64,000 nt of DNA from Circinella minor (Eukaryota > Mucoromycota > Mucoromycetes > Mucorales > Lichtheimiaceae). The stretch spans positions 37,635 through 101,634 of the forward strand of contig JAEPRB010000149.1 of the NCBI GenBank assembly GCA_016758965.1, read 5' to 3'. Under the pieces are notes generated by a model, which made no database searches, had not been told where the DNA came from, and was given only the letters and a program-made list of their open reading frames with translations. A program made the position numbers and the translations under genes. This document shows, piece after piece, positions 33,290-42,891 of the stretch; position 1 is the stretch's first letter, and each line of letters opens with the position of its first letter.

Positions 33290-33822
33290 ATAGAATAAAT
33301 ACCAAAGATGGCATTTATAATATTTTTTTTGTATTTCCCTTCCCATCCTTCACCATCTTTTTTTTACTACAACCCTTCTCCTTCTATTATATAAACATTT
33401 TCTTTTTTAGTTCGCCTCATGTATGCATATCACATTTATTTCTCTCTCTTACATCCTTTATTATTTTATTAAAAAGCTATTGATTTGATCCTTTTAATTA
33501 ATTATTTAATGTTAACAACAATCTTTGTATTATTCATTTTGCTCTATTGGAGAAAATCCGTGTGTTTTTCATGATAATATCTTTTTGATTTAAAATTTGT
33601 TGTCAGGCGCAAAAAAAAAGTTGCCGCAGTAATTTGCATGAATTTCGGCGCTTATACAATTCCTGGGGAATAAAATGAGGGAAGGGGAAAAATATAAGTG
33701 CTCTTAAATGGTCCATGCATAACAGTGGATGTCTGACTTGCACCTATGATAAATCAATATATAACAGTTAAATTATTTGATAAGATTTCTGGTTTACTTT
33801 ATACACATGCTCATCACATTGG
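33290..33822. other. Shared 3' region of two convergent genes
   Basis: About 530 nt between the sulfite reductase stop and the stop of the Fanzor-like gene. T-rich, with no gene. If the Fanzor-like gene belongs to a mobile unit, its guide RNA and one end could lie here, but I cannot see a defined end. Confidence 0.4.
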
Positions 33823-36800
33823 TTACTTAATATACATACCATACGAACGGAGTGATGGCGAAACCAAACTAAATTTTTCATCCAGTTGGAATTTACTGGT
33901 TGTAGTTGATGATGTTGTTGTGGTGGGGGAAGGGTTATATGGCGGTAATGGTATACTGTCGGGTGATAATAGAGTTGTTGTACCTGCCAATCCAATACCG
34001 GTTGCACCAACCGAATCACGATTAAAAGTGGTATAGCCAGCTTTCACTGCGGGACAGTCAGGGTTCGTGCAGATGAGGGCGCCGTGTGATGTTTTCTTCT
34101 TTTTCCCATTCTTGACAATATTTGACGGTAACAATTCTAAGGGTGAGAAACAAAAAGCGCATGTTTGACTAGATCTGTGTTCGTTCTGTAAACCAACAGC
34201 CGTCGAATGGTAATGTGCACCTCGAAACTTCTTCCCACCTCTTCTTGGTCGTCCTTTAAGAAAAGTGTTGAAACCCATTCCTGCAAGTCCAATCCTATCA
34301 ATACAAAAAAAGAATACATCCATGTCAATTTCTTAATCTCATAACAGTATTACATAAAAATGATATAATGAACAAAATATTAAAAGTAAACTTACAGCAT
34401 CATGACGGTAACTTCTTTTTTCTTCAAATACAATTTATCGGCCGCCACCTTTTTCACGTAACGATGTTCAGCACGAGCCAGTTTAAAATAAACAAGTTTA
34501 TTTTTAACTGTCTGGTGTCGCCTTTCATTCATAGCAGATGGAGAATAATAGAAATCACGGAGTGTATTCTTAACAGACAATCGATTCTAATATATCAACG
34601 ATGTGAGCAACTAACCATTATCCAAAAGAAATAAATAAATATAACACATAATTCATTTACCTTTTGTCTTTTTAGTATTTCACTTGGTTCCATAATGCCA
34701 TTGAACGAGTTCTTATTCAGCAATTCTTCAGCAGCAACAACCTTCTTGTTTTTCTTCGACTATTTTAGAAAAAAAAGTGATAAGTAACTGACTTGCGTGT
34801 TATGATGTGTTGAAGGAAACTCACTCTTTTACGCCTTACTCGTCTCCTATTAAACTTCCTGTTAAATGACTCCTCATCCACTTGTTCATGTGTGATTGAG
34901 AAAGGTTTTGACAGTTTTAAATCATCAATAGAATATTCTTTTTTGGTGAATTTTATTTCATTGGTAAGTTTGTTACGCAATTGCTCGATTTGTTGATTCG
35001 ATAAAGGTTGATCAGTTAAACGTATCGAGTCATGATCAGTACAAGTTTGGATAACCCAGAAACAATGACGGTCACTTTGTTCTCGTTGTTGTAAGGTCTG
35101 GTCTGTTTCTTCAAGTTGGTGCTTTTGCAGTTGTTCCTGTACGTTATTGTTGTTGTTATTATCAGACTCTTGTTGTTGTTGCAGTTGACTTGAAAAAAAA
35201 TCGACTTCTTGCTTCTCTTCACTATCACCAATAAATTCCGCCTTTTCAAGATTAACCAAGTCTTCAATTTGTTCAAGTTGCTGTTGTTCGTACTCTTGTT
35301 GTTGGTTGTACAAATGAACGTGGAACTGAACATCATCATTTGTCAAGGGAATTGTTTGAGCTAATACAACATGACCGTAATCGGTGGCCCCATATGCAAC
35401 CTTCTTGAGATGCAACCCTGAAATATCAATATTAGCTGTAACATCCTCATGTTGCATGCGTTCTGGAGTTGGTTTGGTAGGTGGTACATCAACAGACAAA
35501 TCACCAATAGTGCCGTGGTTTTCAATGGCCTAAAAATTTAATATTTAATAAAAGACGAACTTCACACAAAAAGAGGAAAGGAAAAAAAGAAGACAAATAA
35601 AAAGTTGCTTACCTTATTAAGGTTATATTTGGAACTTCTCCAATCTTTGATATATCTTTGAACTAGTTTGAGCAAATGACTTTTTTTCCGTTTGGCGTAG
35701 ACTTGGCCTTTAAGTTTCTGGCTTAACAAACGCTTAATGGAACCACGACTCTTTAAACGTTCAGTTTTAGTTCTATTACATTCTTCGTTAGTCTCCCTAA
35801 ATTGCGTCTTCAATATATCTCTAGCTGCAGTCATCTTGTTGATCATGTCTTCAATGTGATCCAATTGTTGTTGTAATTCTTGCAATGACTTTCCAATATG
35901 CTCCTTGGCGACATAAGCACCTTTACGTTTCTTCTTTTTCTTCTTTTTACAATTCTTCTTTTGCCTTGTCTCATATTCGGACACTACAGGAACATGATCA
36001 TCCTTAATCAATCCCAATATAGAAACCGTCTTGTCAGGTCTAACAACCATCCGGTTGGCAAATAATAGTTTGTGTCGATTGCATAAAGAGATAACCTTCT
36101 CTTTATCGAAAAAAGACCACCACATGGGGTCACCGTTCTTGCGGGCGGCATAGCTTGAAGTGATTGCCTTATCTGTACCAACAGGTGTTACCTCGAAGGG
36201 TCCTTGGGGAATACCATCCTTGTGTGGTGTTAAAGTCTCGTACATAATGGCAGGATTGATGGGTATTGTATGAATCTTGTGAGGAGCAACGATTGGTGAT
36301 ATCTCTTGTACGTGATCATGATAACCGACAGCAATCAGGATTGAGTTGGCGAGAAGAATAAATGGCAATTGGGTTAAAAGACACATCGAGTCTGAGTGAG
36401 GAGCGTAGGGTAGTAGCTGGTCGGTAATGAGCTTTACAACAACGATTTCATCAGATTTAAGAGACTTGTCATGGGAAGCTTTTAAGACCTCGTTATCAGA
36501 TACACTTCCAGTTCGAGCGATTTTTGGATTGCGAAGTAATGCCTTGATCAAACCTAAAAGATCGAACGGGATATTCAACATTTACTTCTTCAACACTGTC
36601 TTTGCCAAACAAAATAACTCATTCAAAAGTATATACATATATATATCAACCAAAGAAAAAAATTATAATATATAGATACCTTCAAGTTTTCTGATACGAG
36701 TAGCACTCGCTTCTTTCACCTTTTCTTCTGGTGTTGGAGCTACTGATTTCCCTTTGGAACGACTGCCTCGTCCGGCTGAAGATATAATATTCGTACTGGT

Positions 36801-38528
36801 TGTACCTTTTTCCATCACATTTTGTCCTTCTTCTTCTTCCTCCTCTTCTTCAATCTCGCCTTCCCACATTTCTACTAAATCACCAGGGCCAAGGTTGGTT
36901 GCAACACGTTCAATGTCCTATATTTATATGAGAACAAAAAGAATAATACGCGTCAATGCTTTGATTTGACGTAACTCAACAATTTATTTTTATATTTCTC
37001 CATTCTTACCTTGTCTTTTTCAGCCTTGGTACCAATACCCGATTTTCCCTGTTGTGGAATTATTATTAAATACATTCATAAATGAATAATAAACACCAAA
37101 AGTAATAATAAAAGTGAATCATACGTACCTCTTCAAGATCTTTTAGAATGGAAGCCAATTTATCCAATCGTTTGATACAGGATTGGACACGCATTGCGTA
37201 TTTATGTTCATCATCTTCGTGAAGTTTTCCATGCCGTATATGCTTTGCCATTTGATGACATTCATGCTGAATCTTGGACTTGATTTGTTTTCTTGATATT
37301 TGTTGAGGTTGTGATGTTGAAGACTGCTCTTGTTTTTCCTCCTTTGTTTTCTGAATAATTGCCTTGGCACGTTCGATTGTCCTTTGTTCACGTTCAGGAG
37401 CCAAATGTATTCGAAGCAAAATACGAATCAAGTAACGTTGGGCTTTTGCGTAAATATTGGTTTCAGACCACTTATTTTGGAAATTTGTATTAAATTCTTT
37501 AATTGCTGTTGCTGTTGTGATGCTCAAACCGTCTGCTGTTGAAGGTCGCACTTTTTGAAAACAAGATCACCCCATAACGGATGGATGGTGTCGTTGTTAT
37601 TATCTTTTTTATTTCCAAGATGATGTGATTGTATAAATTGTAAGTGGACGTTGGTGTATAGTTCTTGTAGATCTTTTGCTCTGGTGTTGGGCTTATATAA
37701 TTTATCAAGTTGTTCCTTCAGAGAAAGATTTGGGGGAGCAACCATAATCTTGTTTATGTTGTCCAAGGGTTCTCTGTTACGAATAGCAAATGATTTTGGT
37801 AGAATTTTCGTAATATCAAAGCCAGATTTTTCTTTTTTAAGCTGAACGTCGTCCCTTTCGATAATTGATATATTGTGGTGAGCCAGTGATAATAATGTCA
37901 TTCGAACAAGAGCACTAACATTTGATACTGCTGTAGTTGCGTCCATTGCTGCTTGCTTTAGTGAGTTGTAAACCAAGTCATTGGGAATATCATCACGCAG
38001 TACACTGACAATTGCAACGAGTGAAGTCATTCGTAATCTGTCTTCGTCGTCGCCAATTGAATTTGCTTCATTCTCGTTATTTTCAGGTGGTTGTTGTTCC
38101 TCTTGTTGTTGTTGTTGTTGTGACAAAGCTTTATTCTTATGTTCCTTGTATAAACGCTTGGAATGGTCCTTTTTAACCTGTTCCCATAATTGTTTAGTGC
38201 CACCTAAACTTGCTAACCCATTGCTTATTTGCTTTGGAGTTGGATGAATATTATGATTTGTTTTGGCAAGGTTACTGACCATTTCTAGTGATCCTTGAGG
38301 GCAAGTCTTCTTTGTTTCAAGAAACACCACCATTTCTTCTTCGTTGTACTTTTTAATGTTGTCACTGATGATATTTGATAATTTTTGTTGCAAAACTTCT
38401 TTGACTAAATTACGTAAAATTTCTTTGTCATCTTTCGACGTTGTTTGTCTTTTACGTTTTCCTAAACTAACTGAACCTTCTTCAATTATGATGGCTGCTG
38501 GTTGCTTTTGTGTTGTTGATGATGACAT
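33823..38528 (-). pseudogene. Fanzor-like (eukaryotic TnpB-like) RuvC nuclease gene, one frameshift
   Basis: Eight exons: 38528-37129, 37048-37010, 36917-36680, 36553-35613, 35529-34825, 34759-34661, 34586-34396, 34294-33823. All joins are GT-AG and phase-consistent except inside exon 1, where the frame changes at 37524-37551. With one base restored the product would be about 1360 aa. The C-terminal third has the TnpB/Fanzor plan: a RuvC-I strand with Asp in YGATDYG (codon 35382-35380), basic and helical linkers, then NEHRSSQTC with a CAFC...CTNPDC zinc ribbon, and RuvC-III Asp in FNRDSVGA. The N-terminal half is Gln/Lys-rich and includes a long Lys run likely to act in nuclear import or nucleic-acid binding. 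Fanzors are RNA-guided DNA nucleases related to bacterial TnpB and carried by mobile elements. Whether this copy is active is open. Classed as pseudogene only because of the frameshift, which could also be a sequencing error. Confidence 0.72.
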
Positions 38529-38565
38529 TTTGATATATGATTCATAATATGTAAAGATGAGTGTG

Positions 38566-38664
38566 TCAAAAAAAAAGAAAGAGAAAAAAAAGAAAGAGAA
38601 AAGAAAGAAAGAGAAAAGAAAGAAAGAGAAAAGAAAGAAAAAGAAAAAGAAAGAAAAAAAAAAG
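38566..38664. repeat. Purine-only microsatellite (GAAA/AAAGA)n
   Basis: About 100 nt of almost pure A/G on the plus strand, built of AAAGAAAG-type units, just upstream of the Fanzor-like gene start. It creates a spurious Phe/Leu/Ser reading frame on the minus strand. May lie in the 5' leader or promoter. Confidence 0.75.
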
Positions 38665-38806
38665 TGTCGCGTGCGCGAGATGACGCGTTCCAAATATTTA
38701 TACAGCCAGTTACTGCCCTTTTTTTCTTGTTTACAATAAACTGTTCCATAATTGGTTGAGCTATTTTTTTTGTTATTATTCAGCTTCAAAGCTTTGATTC
38801 ACAACC

Positions 38807-39262
38807 ATGACTAGTCTTTATCCAGCTTACAAGTGTAACAAAGAAGACTGGCTCAAGAAGGCTATTGATAATACTACATATAATTCAAGATTTAATGAAA
38901 GTATTGATAAAGCTTTTAATGAAAAAACCAAGAACAAAGCATTTTGTAAAGATAAAGCACAAGCATGTTTGGATCGTTTGCGTGAATATGAAATAGTTGA
39001 AAATCAAACAAGAGATAGTATTTCACGTCAAGTTACTAATGTTCTTGAAGGAGATAATGAAGTGAAATATATCTTTGATTTACCAAACAATTCATCTTTT
39101 CCTATCACGCAGCATCACCTCTTGCTTGAATTTATCGTTGATCATTACAAAGAACTTTCTGTTTATCTCTTTTCTAGTCGATCAGCAACAGTAAGAATTG
39201 GAAATGGATCAATTGTTGTCGCTATATTTCATCATATCCCAAAGCGACAAGGTAAAGGTTGA
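38807..39262 (+). CDS. Small protein of unknown function, divergent from the Fanzor-like gene
   Basis: Uninterrupted 151-aa ORF starting 278 nt from the Fanzor-like gene start and pointing away from it. I do not recognise it. It is charged and probably soluble, with a helical N-terminal half rich in Lys/Asp/Glu (KEDWLKKAIDNTTY, KDKAQACLDRLREYE) and a beta-rich C-terminal half (VRIGNGSIVVAIFHH). No signal peptide or membrane segment. Near the end, AAGGTAAAGG could be a splice donor, so the last residues are uncertain. Codon use and lack of stops look gene-like. It could be a host gene or cargo of the neighbouring element. Confidence 0.5.
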   Translation: MTSLYPAYKCNKEDWLKKAIDNTTYNSRFNESIDKAFNEKTKNKAFCKDKAQACLDRLREYEIVENQTRDSISRQVTNVLEGDNEVKYIFDLPNNSSFPITQHHLLLEFIVDHYKELSVYLFSSRSATVRIGNGSIVVAIFHHIPKRQGKG

Positions 39263-39672
39263 CATTTTCTATATAAAAAAAAATCAGTTTACATACGTAG
39301 TGCTGACACAATGTACATTTTTATATCATATGTATATGGGTACAAAAAGTTTTCTTCCTTTGTGTTCATTCAAACATTAAATACTTGCGTTTAACAATCT
39401 TTATAGCTTCAATGGCATAATAGTGCTATAAGTTTTCAATTTCCATGTAATAATATTAATATATCTTATAATTCACTGGCTTTCATTATATATATTATTA
39501 TATGTTATCGCTTAAAATACAACATACTATCTATCGGTAGCTTAGCTAGGCTTCTCAAAGCTAATCAGATATCTGGTCCAACAATAGTATTATATATTCA
39601 TCGTCCACATCAATTACTGCCTTTTTAATGACATTTATATAAATAACAATAAAAAAATATATATCTCGAACA

Positions 39673-39731
39673 GTTAAGTTGTGATTTCATTAGCTCAATT
39701 AATAGCTGCTTAACTCACCCAATAGTTGGCC
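39673..39731 (+). repeat. Direct repeat, left copy
   Basis: About 58 nt beginning GTTAAGTTGTGATTTCATTA and ending in TTGGCC. It recurs in the same orientation at 40009-40065 with an estimated 75-80% identity by eye. The pair encloses an AT-hook mini-ORF. Confidence 0.6.
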
Positions 39732-39778
39732 ACAAATTTCCTTTTTTCAATTCAAGAACCACAACTTAAAGCTCTATT

Positions 39779-39877
39779 CTAGGCAGGAAGACGTTTTTTA
39801 CATTTTGGCTTATTTTTACTACCGAACGGTCTACCAAGACCGCGTTTCTCTGGCGAAGACACGTCGTCGTTATCCAT
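39779..39877 (-). CDS. Mini-ORF with AT-hook motif
   Basis: A 32-codon ORF (ATG at 39877, stop at 39779) with the motif GLGRPFGSKNKPK, a good match to an AT-hook (core GRP in a basic context) that binds the minor groove of AT-rich DNA. It is followed by further basic residues. It is too short for a full regulator; it may be the first exon or a remnant of an AT-hook-bearing transposase or chromatin protein. Confidence in the motif is better than in the gene. Confidence 0.35.
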   Translation of the reverse strand: MDNDDVSSPEKRGLGRPFGSKNKPKCKKRLPA

Positions 39878-40008
39878 ATTATAACAAGAGGGAAAACCTG
39901 TGTTGTATAAAAAAAAATTTCAAACAAAACAAAAACGGAAATTCCATACGCGATTCGCACGAGCATAAACGATCTTAGTACACATAAGATTTTTAGGTCG
40001 CACATAGG

Positions 40009-40065
40009 CGTTAAATCGTGATTTCATTGGCTGAAGTTGTTGCTTAACTTATAAAATGATTGGCC
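40009..40065 (+). repeat. Direct repeat, right copy
   Basis: Second copy of the repeat at 39673-39731, starting GTTAAATCGTGATTTCATTG. It lies about 140 nt upstream of the GNL1-like start codon, so it may overlap that promoter. Confidence 0.6.
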
Positions 40066-40206
40066 CCAGGTACTTTAACACCGCATGAATTTCTGTGTCG
40101 CGAAAAGAAAAAAAAAGTTTCCTTTTCATTCATAACAAAAAAAAAGAACGTTTCCCGATCAACCGACGACGAAAAAAGACTTTTTTTTTTCTTAATTACT
40201 CACAAA

Positions 40207-42891
40207 ATGACAGGACGTCGTAAAAAACCTTTTAGTGGTAAAGCTAAGAAAGTTCAATTACAAGCAAAAAAGTTACGTAAAGCAGCTCAAGAAGAACGTG
40301 AACAAGAACGTGAATTACAAAGAGAACAACAACGACAACGGAATGGTAAATCAAAATAATGATTGTTTTTGTAGCAATGAAAGCAGTAGTATTTGATTAA
40401 AGATTGAATGCCGAAGATCTATATTCATGAAACGTAACTAACGGACCTTCATGTTTCTAAAAAAAAATAAAAGAAATAACGGATCAATCTACACCATTAT
40501 CACAATCATTTGTCAAAGCATCTATTCCAGCTTTACCAACAGCTTATTCTTTGGATGGTCGACGTGGTGGTAATAATAGCAATGGACCGAGAAAGTAAAA
40601 CAATTTCGTTTGTAAATAACAATATCTATTACTAAATAAATAATACTAATAATAAGATTCTGGTAAATATAGACTTGTATCCATGTTTGAAAAATTATCA
40701 AGTGACGAAATCGAACGTAGTCGATTACGAAGTATGAAACCTTTTGAACGATTGCCACAGGTAAATAAGTATATATATATATTAAAAAGAGGATGATGAC
40801 TAATTACATAAAATGGGATCATATATACTAAATGAAAACTATATATATTAGACTGCATTGGAAGTTGGTGTTGACTCGTTTTCGGAATCCATTGACTTTC
40901 CTAAACGACCTACATGGAGTTATGGTATGAATAAAGAAGAAGTTGAAGCTCGAGAAAATCAATATTTTGAAAAATGGGTCAAGGATATTTATGAACGTTA
41001 TGGAAATGATGAACGTGGACAATTAAGTTGGTTTGAACATAATCTTGAAGTCTGGCGACAATTGTAAGTCCTTTTTGATATTTAATCATGAAAATACAAA
41101 TAATATGTATGCTGTATATATAACTAGAACATCGCTTAAAACGGTACTATAATTAGATGGCGTGTATTGGAAATCAGCGATGTCGTACTTGTTGTAATGG
41201 ATATTCGACACCCACTTTTACATTTTCCAAGAGCCTTATATGAGTATGTTACTCGAGATTTGAAACGCAAAATTGTTGGGATTTTTAACAAGGTGGATTT
41301 GGTATCTGAATTTACTGTGTTTGCATGGACAAAATATTTTGAAGAACAATTTCCTGAATTACATATCGCTTCTTTCAGTTGCTATCCTCGTGATGAAAAA
41401 TTGATTGATGATACCAAAACATGTAAGATAATAAGAAAGTAGGTCTTAGTTATATAGAATGATAAACTAAGGAAAACGCGAATGGATATATTATTATTAA
41501 TAGATACTCTCAAAATGCGTGTTAAAAGACCTCGCAACCGATATTACCATGCTCATGGTGTACGTGCTATACTTGAAGCATGTAAAGATGTCAAATTGGA
41601 AAAAAAGGGTGTTCATGTAGATTGGGCAGGATTAATGGCTCGATATAAGAATGATGATGATGCATCAGCTGAGTCGGCTGTGGATGAAGAACGTAATTCG
41701 TATGATGATGACGAAAGTGATACCAATAGTATGGATGGGTTGGGTAAGTAATCACATATATATACCGTAATTAGTGACAGCAAATACTTGATAGGAGGAA
41801 TGTGAGTTGATTAATTGTAAATATACATTATCTTTGTACTAGATGACGAATTTAGTCGAATTATGGATATATCAACTGAACAAGTAACTCCACATAGTGA
41901 ATACGTCACATTGGGTCTTGTGGGACATCCTAATGTTGGAAAAAGTAGTTTAATAAACAGTATTATGCAACGGACGGTAGTAAGTGCAAGTCGAACACCA
42001 GGTATGGGTTTTTTTATATATGGAACAACATTCATTTTGATATAAAATATTTATTATTTTTGTATATTTATGACAGGTCATACAAAACATTTTCAAACAA
42101 TCCATTTATGTGAAAACCTTCGATTATGTGATTCACCGGGTCTTGTTTTCCCAACTTTACTTCCTCGCGCACTTCAGGTAAAAAAAAAAGTGAATTTTAG
42201 TTTGTTATTGTTATTTTTTATATTATGTCTATTATGTTTATATTCATAAAACGCTCTTTTCTTCTTAATTTATATAAATATGTACAGATTTTATCAGGCA
42301 TGTACCCTATTGCCCAAGTTCAAGAACCGTATAGTGTTGTACAATATCTTGCCGAACGTGTGCCCGTGGAAAAAATTCTTTCATTAACACCACCTGATTT
42401 AGATAATGCATTATCATTTAAATGGACAGCATGGGCTATATGTGAAGGTAAATAAGATGAAGAAGGGAAAAAATGGTTGGGGATAGAAATGAATAAGGGG
42501 ACTAGGAGAAAGAAAGATATAATATTTCCCACAATAACAGAGAAAAAACTTATATATAATGATAGCATATGCAATACAGCGAGGGTTTTTCACCGCACAA
42601 GCTGCTAGACCTGATGTATATCGAGCAGCGAATACAATTCTTCGGTTTACGAATGATGGACGAATTCTCATGTCATTTAAACCAATTGGATTCTTTACAA
42701 GTAGTAAATATGAACAATTACGTGTAAAAGAATCAACAAAAAAGCAACAGGATAAACGTTACCATAGTGATAGTAATATAGATAATAGTCAGTCAGAAAC
42801 TGATGATAGTGATGAAGATGAAGAAGAGGGTGGTAGAATTGATATCCAAGGGGGGGGTTTCGCTCTTTTAGCTGATCAATCAGATGTGTAA
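40207..42891 (+). CDS. Circularly permuted GTPase, GNL1-like
   Basis: Predicted 600-aa GTPase of the YlqF/YawG family (GNL1 type), usually involved in ribosome biogenesis. Ten exons: 40207-40345, 40474-40569, 40657-40760, 40852-41063, 41157-41422, 41504-41743, 41843-42001, 42077-42177, 42288-42447, 42566-42891; sum in frame. The G motifs occur in permuted order: G4 NKVDL (exon 5), then G1 GHPNVGKSS (exon 7), G2-like RTPGHTKH, and G3 DSPG (exon 8). The N-terminus MTGRRKKPFSGKAKK is the basic tail typical of GNL1. There is an Asp/Glu-rich insert (exon 6 and the C-terminal tail of exon 10) as in other eukaryotic members. Exon 1 and 2 joins are the least certain. Confidence 0.92.

Follow-up and report, generated by a model that had tools for sequence, protein, structure and literature searches.

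A large, divergent Fanzor1-lineage nuclease gene, probably carried by a decaying DNA transposon of Circinella minor

Introduction

To our knowledge, the service that Fanzor nucleases render to the transposons carrying them is an open question. The described systems closest to the one considered here include SpuFz1 from Spizellomyces punctatus (PDB 8gkh) and PpFz1 from Parasitella parasitica (PDB 9cf0), two Fanzor1 proteins with solved structures. Most Fanzor1 proteins are 600–700 aa long (PMC11423790). The RuvC-I motif of Fanzors is near exclusively DPG, and their alternative Glu precedes the CxxC of the zinc finger by six residues (PMC10711439). In this study we analyzed a 64,000-bp stretch of the genome of Circinella minor, a member of the Mucorales (contig JAEPRB010000149.1, positions 37,635 to 101,634 of the forward strand), which is further referred to as the window. 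The source assembly comprises 46.6 Mb in 619 contigs; other contigs are denoted C5, C72 and so on. The minus strand of the window carries what is probably a large, divergent nuclease gene of the Fanzor1 lineage, which resides in a DNA transposon copy now in decay.

The window protein and SpuFz1 share the alternative Glu six residues before CxxC, a zinc ribbon ending in C-T-N-P-x-C, and NRD at RuvC-III. The gene for SpuFz1 is also located within a transposon with terminal inverted repeats (TIRs), SPu-1 (PMC3627910). The two proteins differ in size and layout: SpuFz1 has 633 aa encoded by a single open reading frame (ORF), whereas the window protein is modelled at ~1,360 residues in eight exons; RuvC-I is preceded by 382 residues in the former and by ~920 in the latter; and the spacings between the SpuFz1 residues D383, E541 and D606 are 158 and 65 (PMC10432273), compared with 320 and 55 in the window protein. 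PpFz1 comes from a Mucorales host, as does the window element. It carries an insertion in RuvC, the FRI domain of ~100 aa (PMC11423790), whereas the insertion in the window protein is larger and Gln-rich. The target-adjacent motif (TAM) is CATA for SpuFz1 (PMC10432273) and ATN for PpFz1 (PMC11423790, where one sentence swaps the TAMs of SpuFz1 and GtFz1); for the window family we predict ARAAATT.

Gene structure and catalytic motifs

The gene spans positions 38528–33823 on the minus strand and consists of eight exons separated by seven GT...AG introns of 65–126 nt. Exon 1 (37129–38528) begins with the ATG at 38528. It is followed by exon 2 (37010–37048), exon 3 (36680–36917), which contains an acidic stretch, exon 4 (35613–36553), covering the pre-RuvC region with a Lys-rich stretch, exon 5 (34825–35529), carrying the RuvC-I Asp and the Gln-rich insertion, exons 6 (34661–34759) and 7 (34396–34586), and exon 8 (33823–34294), which contains the other two catalytic residues, the zinc ribbon and the stop codon. 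Poly-Gln, poly-Lys and poly-Glu tracts of low complexity are found in the protein.

Exons 2–8, when spliced, yield a single stop-free frame of 894 residues. In this C-terminal part the RuvC-I Asp is residue 456 (GATDYG, codon 35382–35380), the catalytic Glu is residue 776 (NEHRSSQTC, codon 34182–34180), and the RuvC-III Asp is residue 831 (FNRDSVGA, codon 34017–34015). The zinc ribbon CAFC...CTNPDC lies between the Glu and the RuvC-III Asp, and the Glu is six residues ahead of its CxxC (E-HRSSQT-C), that is, in the Fanzor-type alternative position. An earlier sequence-only reading of this DNA had named the same motifs in the same order (YGATDYG, NEHRSSQTC, CAFC...CTNPDC, FNRDSVGA) and had pointed to a very long N-terminal part; all the motifs are found on the minus strand, and the length of the region before RuvC-I agrees with that description.

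Exon 1 is not a single open frame: it is disrupted near 37525–37566. The break is a small indel unique to the window copy and absent from all seven other aligned copies; therefore the window copy as it stands cannot produce the full protein. An intron at this place was considered and rejected, given that the other copies retain the sequence and that the NCBI model for the copy on C72 (P0001, INT45_013529, 1280 aa) reads through it. The exons of P0001 are largely those of our model, with departures at exon 1, at the end of exon 5 and at the C-terminus; due to this different splicing, the C72 copy's own exon 1 stop is skipped in P0001.

Assignment to the Fanzor1 lineage

Eight diverged ORFs in this genome resemble the C-terminus of the window protein, with BLAST E values between 7e-18 and 2e-8; the one at C5:242871 is 43% identical over 95 aa (E=7e-18). 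The window C-terminus and five of these ORFs were combined into a six-row profile, which was compared with 177,635 PDB sequences. The top two matches were SpuFz1 (E=1.1e-6) and PpFz1 (E=3.4e-4); when the window row was omitted, the values were 6.5e-6 and 5.1e-3, respectively. The sequence-only reading, which the lack of any Fanzor match would have refuted, thus withstood this test only once paralogues had been added to the profile. Together with the Fanzor-type position of the Glu and residence in a mobile element, these matches bear out the Fanzor identity claimed there. The RuvC-I Asp aligns with the Asp of DPG in the three same-genome paralogues examined. A diverged paralogue on C141 contains a 572-residue ORF resembling the region before RuvC-I (E=5e-10). 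The RuvC-I motif is GATDYG in the window protein and P0001, GTTDYG in P0002 and GAADYD in P0004.

Several results weigh against this assignment. Searches with the single sequences of the spliced C-terminal part and P0001 gave nothing significant in PDB, Pfam or NCBIfam. In the profile comparison the RuvC-I strand failed to align with SpuFz1. The DYG of the window protein departs from the DPG typical of Fanzors and thus from the Fanzor1 motif. The AlphaFold model of exon 4 alone, which shows a long helix, is poor (pLDDT 49.7). As for the range of the matches, the PDB hits are confined to the C-terminal Glu, the zinc ribbon and RuvC-III, and PF07282 stays below its cut-off (E=0.14 for the window row, E<=1 for five of the six rows, 0.00055 at best). 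Because DYG replaces DPG, we consider the protein a variant of the Fanzor1 lineage and not a typical member.

Protein-database searches returned Circinella proteins alone, four among the 7,991 candidates that had most words in common with the query and one among 429 candidates. Since only proteins of similar length were candidates, and the 7,991 were probably of low complexity, absence outside Circinella is weak evidence. P0003 from Circinella umbellata (BDC45DRAFT_530444) belongs to the same family, being 72% identical across 30% of the query, which extends the family to a second Circinella species.

The eight diverged ORFs are located in loci L027 (C5:238000-247999), L028 (C5:220000-229999), L029 (C117), L030 (C141), L031 (C16), L032 (C252), L033 (C147) and L034 (C204) and group into about three families according to similarity in DNA or protein. 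Separately, locus L035 (C441) contains at 906-1112 on the minus strand an ORF scoring above the curated cut-off of PF07282 (E=2.9e-9), which represents a more canonical TnpB/Fanzor-like gene.

The transposon and its copies

The gene lies within a transposon of 6,439 bp (33647–40085, minus strand), delimited by reading of the termini and by the sharp ends of similarity in other copies. It has imperfect TIRs (GCGGTGTTAAAGTACCTGGGG... at the left end and GGCGCTTATACAATTCCTGGGG... in the complement of the right end, with CCTGGGG common to both) and is flanked by a target site duplication (TSD) of 8 bp. The right-hand copy of the TSD (33639–33646) reads TGAATTTC on the plus strand and GAAATTCA in the gene orientation; the left-hand copy (40086–40093) is likewise TGAATTTC on the plus strand, and the direct repeat extends to 11 bp. 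On one side of the element there is a sulfite/nitrite reductase gene (PF01077), and on the other a likely gene start, at 40207. A search for an empty site corresponding to this insertion yielded none.

DNA comparison shows that the element ends are common to the window and eight further copies. The search with the right end identified 11 places. Besides the window, nine of them match over at least 120 bp, and C135 has the terminal 46 bp only. The TSD is identical over 8 to 11 bp in six copies and over 7/8 in C93; on C54 the left and right flanks differ and there is no TSD, and on C41 the left end is missing. Large segments of the protein recur on six contigs (C72, C93, C69, C24, C41 and C55) with identity up to 96%, which excludes a chance open frame. 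The sequence-only reading was thus right about a Fanzor-like gene at this locus, but it overlooked the transposon around it, the broken state of the copy and the partner element described below.

Upstream of the gene, a divergent ORF (38807–39262, plus strand; 151 aa to a possible splice donor) is 95–98% identical in six copies; at E<=0.001 it matches only copies of the window element in the C. minor genome. ORFs that lie upstream of three further Fanzor-like genes (L027 8991-9320, minus strand; L030 523-768 and L032 814-1050, plus strand) are similar to it, with a hhalign probability of 74% and E=2.9e-5 in one comparison. We do not claim the divergent ORF as a conserved companion gene, given that tblastn did not recover these three ORFs and that its substitutions by codon position (52/29/32) show no third-position excess. 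On C54, a group of ORFs (L025 564-2612), whose match to DDE_3 is weak and falls below the cut-off (E=0.0018), sits between the left and right pieces of the Fanzor element and is perhaps another inserted transposon.

Decay of the copies

Besides the window, seven copies were read as genes (C72, C93, C24, C41, C69, C55 and C94, but not C54 and C292), with exon borders transferred by alignment. Their exon DNA is 90.6–95.4% identical to the window. Each of the seven contains stops or frame breaks, so that with the window lesions are found in eight out of eight. Internal deletions are seen in the copies on C69, C55, C94 and C54, the first three of which have also lost many introns. Readable intron ends in the seven copies are mostly GT...AG, apart from one GC donor (C41) and a GG bordering exon 1 (C94). 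Substitutions at codon positions 1/2/3, summed over the seven non-independent comparisons with the window, are 343/224/409 in exons 2–8, 161/90/230 in the 5' part of exon 1 and 83/68/104 in its 3' part. The third-position excess means that the reading frame was once under selection. Hence, where the sequence-only reading said that the locus "is or was" a Fanzor system, "was" fits better, since every one of the eight copies read carries lesions.

A long coding region, the presence of seven introns and an excess of third-position substitutions are also features that one would look for in a Fanzor-derived gene domesticated by the host as a single-copy gene with a cellular role. We find this highly improbable in view of the TIRs and the TSD, the recurrence of the right end at nine further places, the lesions in every copy read and the internally deleted derivatives.

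Another explanation concerns the model itself: the gene could be a degenerate TnpB/Fanzor, its long N-terminal part and its Gln-rich insertion being products of decay or of mis-joined exons and not protein. The low complexity of the sequence, the frame breaks in all copies read and the restriction of the PDB matches to the C-terminal region agree with it. Against it, most exon borders recur in other copies, P0001 also has a long N-terminus, the 572-residue ORF of the C141 paralogue resembles the region before RuvC-I, and the third-position excess is seen in exon 1 as well; we therefore regard it as improbable.

The partner element

The left end of the window element (39783–40085, minus strand) is 88–91% identical in DNA to elements on C456, C596 and C6. 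It includes a 32-codon ORF (39782–39877, minus strand) with GRPFGSKNKPK, a motif that we take to be AT-hook-like, which matches the start of the partner's DUF6729 gene; this ORF too is common to the window element and the elements on C456, C596 and C6. The partner transposon on C456 (C456:5766-13120, loci L040 and L049) encodes DUF6729 (PF20499, E=1e-7 and 6e-12) and a 3'-5' exonuclease (DNA_pol_A_exo1, PF01612, E=5.5e-10). It terminates in CCCCAGGTATATTACTAGGGCC and is flanked by an exact 8-bp TSD, AAATATTT; the TSD of the C596 element, GATAAAAC, is also exact. When eight pieces of partner ORFs were scanned, three Pfam matches were significant, two to DUF6729 and one to DNA_pol_A_exo1, and no Pfam transposase model was found in these pieces; the genome was not searched for transposases of Mutator-like elements (MULEs). 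Among the papers searched, none mentioned DUF6729.

We infer that the Fanzor element, having no transposase of its own, would have been moved in trans by this DUF6729/exonuclease transposon or by a relative, which makes the partner a candidate helper. The right termini of the two element types are unlike, a point that counts against this scheme; because of it, mobilization by the partner is unproven.

Fanzor1-bearing DNA transposons of Mucorales have been reported in Mucor, Rhizopus and Phycomyces as MCi-2 and MuDr-like elements (Bao and Jurka 2013; PMC3627910), and the window element resembles them in host and in kind. According to this source, the MuDr-like elements encode no MuDR transposase and have a 9-bp TSD, compared with 7/8 to 11 identical bp in our Fanzor copies and exactly 8 bp in the partners. 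The TSDs of MCi-2 (Mucor) fit ATAATTNNNN(N), with a fixed first half like AAATT of the window family; MCi-2 has no recognizable TIRs, which the window element has, and one MCi-2 subfamily holds a partial Crypton transposase. The window element could itself be a MuDr-type (Mutator) Fanzor1 element, as its Mucorales host, TIRs, absence of an own transposase and near-9-bp TSD would suggest (PMC3627910). We consider this unlikely: the products of the element with the same left end are DUF6729 and a 3'-5' exonuclease, the TSD of that element is 8 bp long, and no Pfam transposase was recognized in the eight partner pieces scanned. The section of PMC3627910 on the MCi-2 and MuDr-like elements names no DUF6729/exonuclease partner.

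Insertion sites

The right flanks of the Fanzor-type elements are GAAATTCA (window), AAAATTAC (C72), GAAATTTT (C93 and C69), AAATTGTG (C24), AAAATTTG (C41), AAATTGTT (C55), AAATTATA (C94), GAAATTAA (C292) and AAATAAAC (C54). Nine of these ten start with (R)AAATT, that is, AAATT is found at offset 0 or 1; on C54 the motif is absent from both flanks. In contrast, none of the seven partner-type right flanks starts with AAATT (AAATATTT, GATAAAAC, CAACTTTA, AAAAAAAA, CCGATTTT, TCAATTTG and TGAAAACT). Four of the partner-type right ends are exact matches and three have 2–3 mismatches; both ends are known only for C456 and C596, and only the C456 element was read for genes as far as its right end. 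The difference at the right flank gives Fisher p=4e-4, and AAATT anywhere on either strand (9/10 vs 1/7) gives p=0.004; both values are descriptive, as the motif was spotted in the same copies. The right flank on C135, where only the terminal 46 bp are present and no family match is found in the 4.9 kb inward, is AAATATTT.

On the left, an A precedes AAATT by two places, outside the TSD, in all seven TSD-bearing copies (window, C72, C93, C24, C69, C55 and C94); the base between them is G in six and A in one. In the nine copies with AAATT, the position corresponding to this outer A at the right junction is occupied by a C from the element.

One account of AAATT is that it reflects solely the target preference of an unseen transposase, with no part for the Fanzor in the choice of site. 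DDE transposases can have target preferences. The right termini differ between the two element types, the partner-type sites are mostly A/T-rich too (AAATATTT on C456, as well as on C135), and both ends are known for only 2/7 partner-type ends, all of which suits this account. It is less comfortable with a motif that is one-sided and fixed in orientation, with the outer A kept on the left in seven TSD copies, and with the absence of the motif from all seven partner-type right ends; moreover, a transposase acting on two similar ends is expected to favour palindromes such as AAATATTT. On balance we find it about equally easy to accept and to doubt.

The other account, which we put forward tentatively, is that ARAAATT is the TAM of the nuclease, so that the nuclease and not the transposase would impose the insertion-site motif. 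In the other Fanzor-like families checked for TSDs only one clean direct repeat was found (10 bp, CAAGTTCCTG, in the C117 copy). Therefore the idea is not generalized to them.

Candidate guide RNA and proposed mechanism

The 3' noncoding right end of the element (33647–33822, minus strand), which includes the right TIR, is 92–98% identical to the window in seven copies and may represent an omega-RNA scaffold, with the guide located outside the element. By analogy, the small RNAs of viral Fanzor1 extend ~15 nt past the TSD, and the TSD has been proposed to become part of the scaffold (PMC10711439). A TSD inside the TAM has a precedent as well, since SPu-1 has a putative TA TSD (PMC3627910) and the TAM of SpuFz1 is CATA (PMC10432273). 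A hairpin is present in the terminal 95 nt, which include 11 nt outside the element and have a better folding energy than shuffled sequences (z=-2.4). Three observations speak against such an RNA: conservation of the right end is unexceptional, the divergent ORF being conserved as well or better; over 187 nt the folding energy is unremarkable (z=-0.95); and no covariation was found. At the gathering threshold, Rfam models identified only a tRNA in the window.

In view of these precedents, we propose the following scheme as the most likely one. An intact nuclease would bind RNA read from the right end (from 33822 to 33647 and beyond), in which the right TIR and the fixed start of the TSD would form the scaffold ending in AAATT, and the bases beyond 33647 would serve as the guide. 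AAATT within the TSD would thus double as the 3' end of the scaffold. The nuclease would cut a matching empty site flanked by ARAAATT beside the TAM, and repair from the occupied copy would then restore the transposon. If the TAM account is correct, then with the outer A present only at the left flank and C in its place at the right junction, the element would be spared from its own guide. Insertions at sites without the TAM would gain no rescue of this homing type and would be lost.

Implications

New here are the DUF6729 partner, the size of the protein with its DYG variant, and the asymmetry of the landing sites. The window protein widens the size range of Fanzors, and a Fanzor cargo is linked to a DUF6729/exonuclease transposon. 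The contrast within one genome is between a Fanzor-type transposon and one that shares its left end: both make an 8-bp duplication, and they differ in a flank motif locked in orientation. Two specific predictions follow from this contrast: ARAAATT as the TAM, and the way in which the element would avoid cutting itself. The asymmetry hints that the nuclease helps to decide where copies survive. In that case, the genome would provide evidence for a eukaryotic Fanzor that selects which insertions of a cut-and-paste transposon survive, namely those at sites flanked by a TAM.

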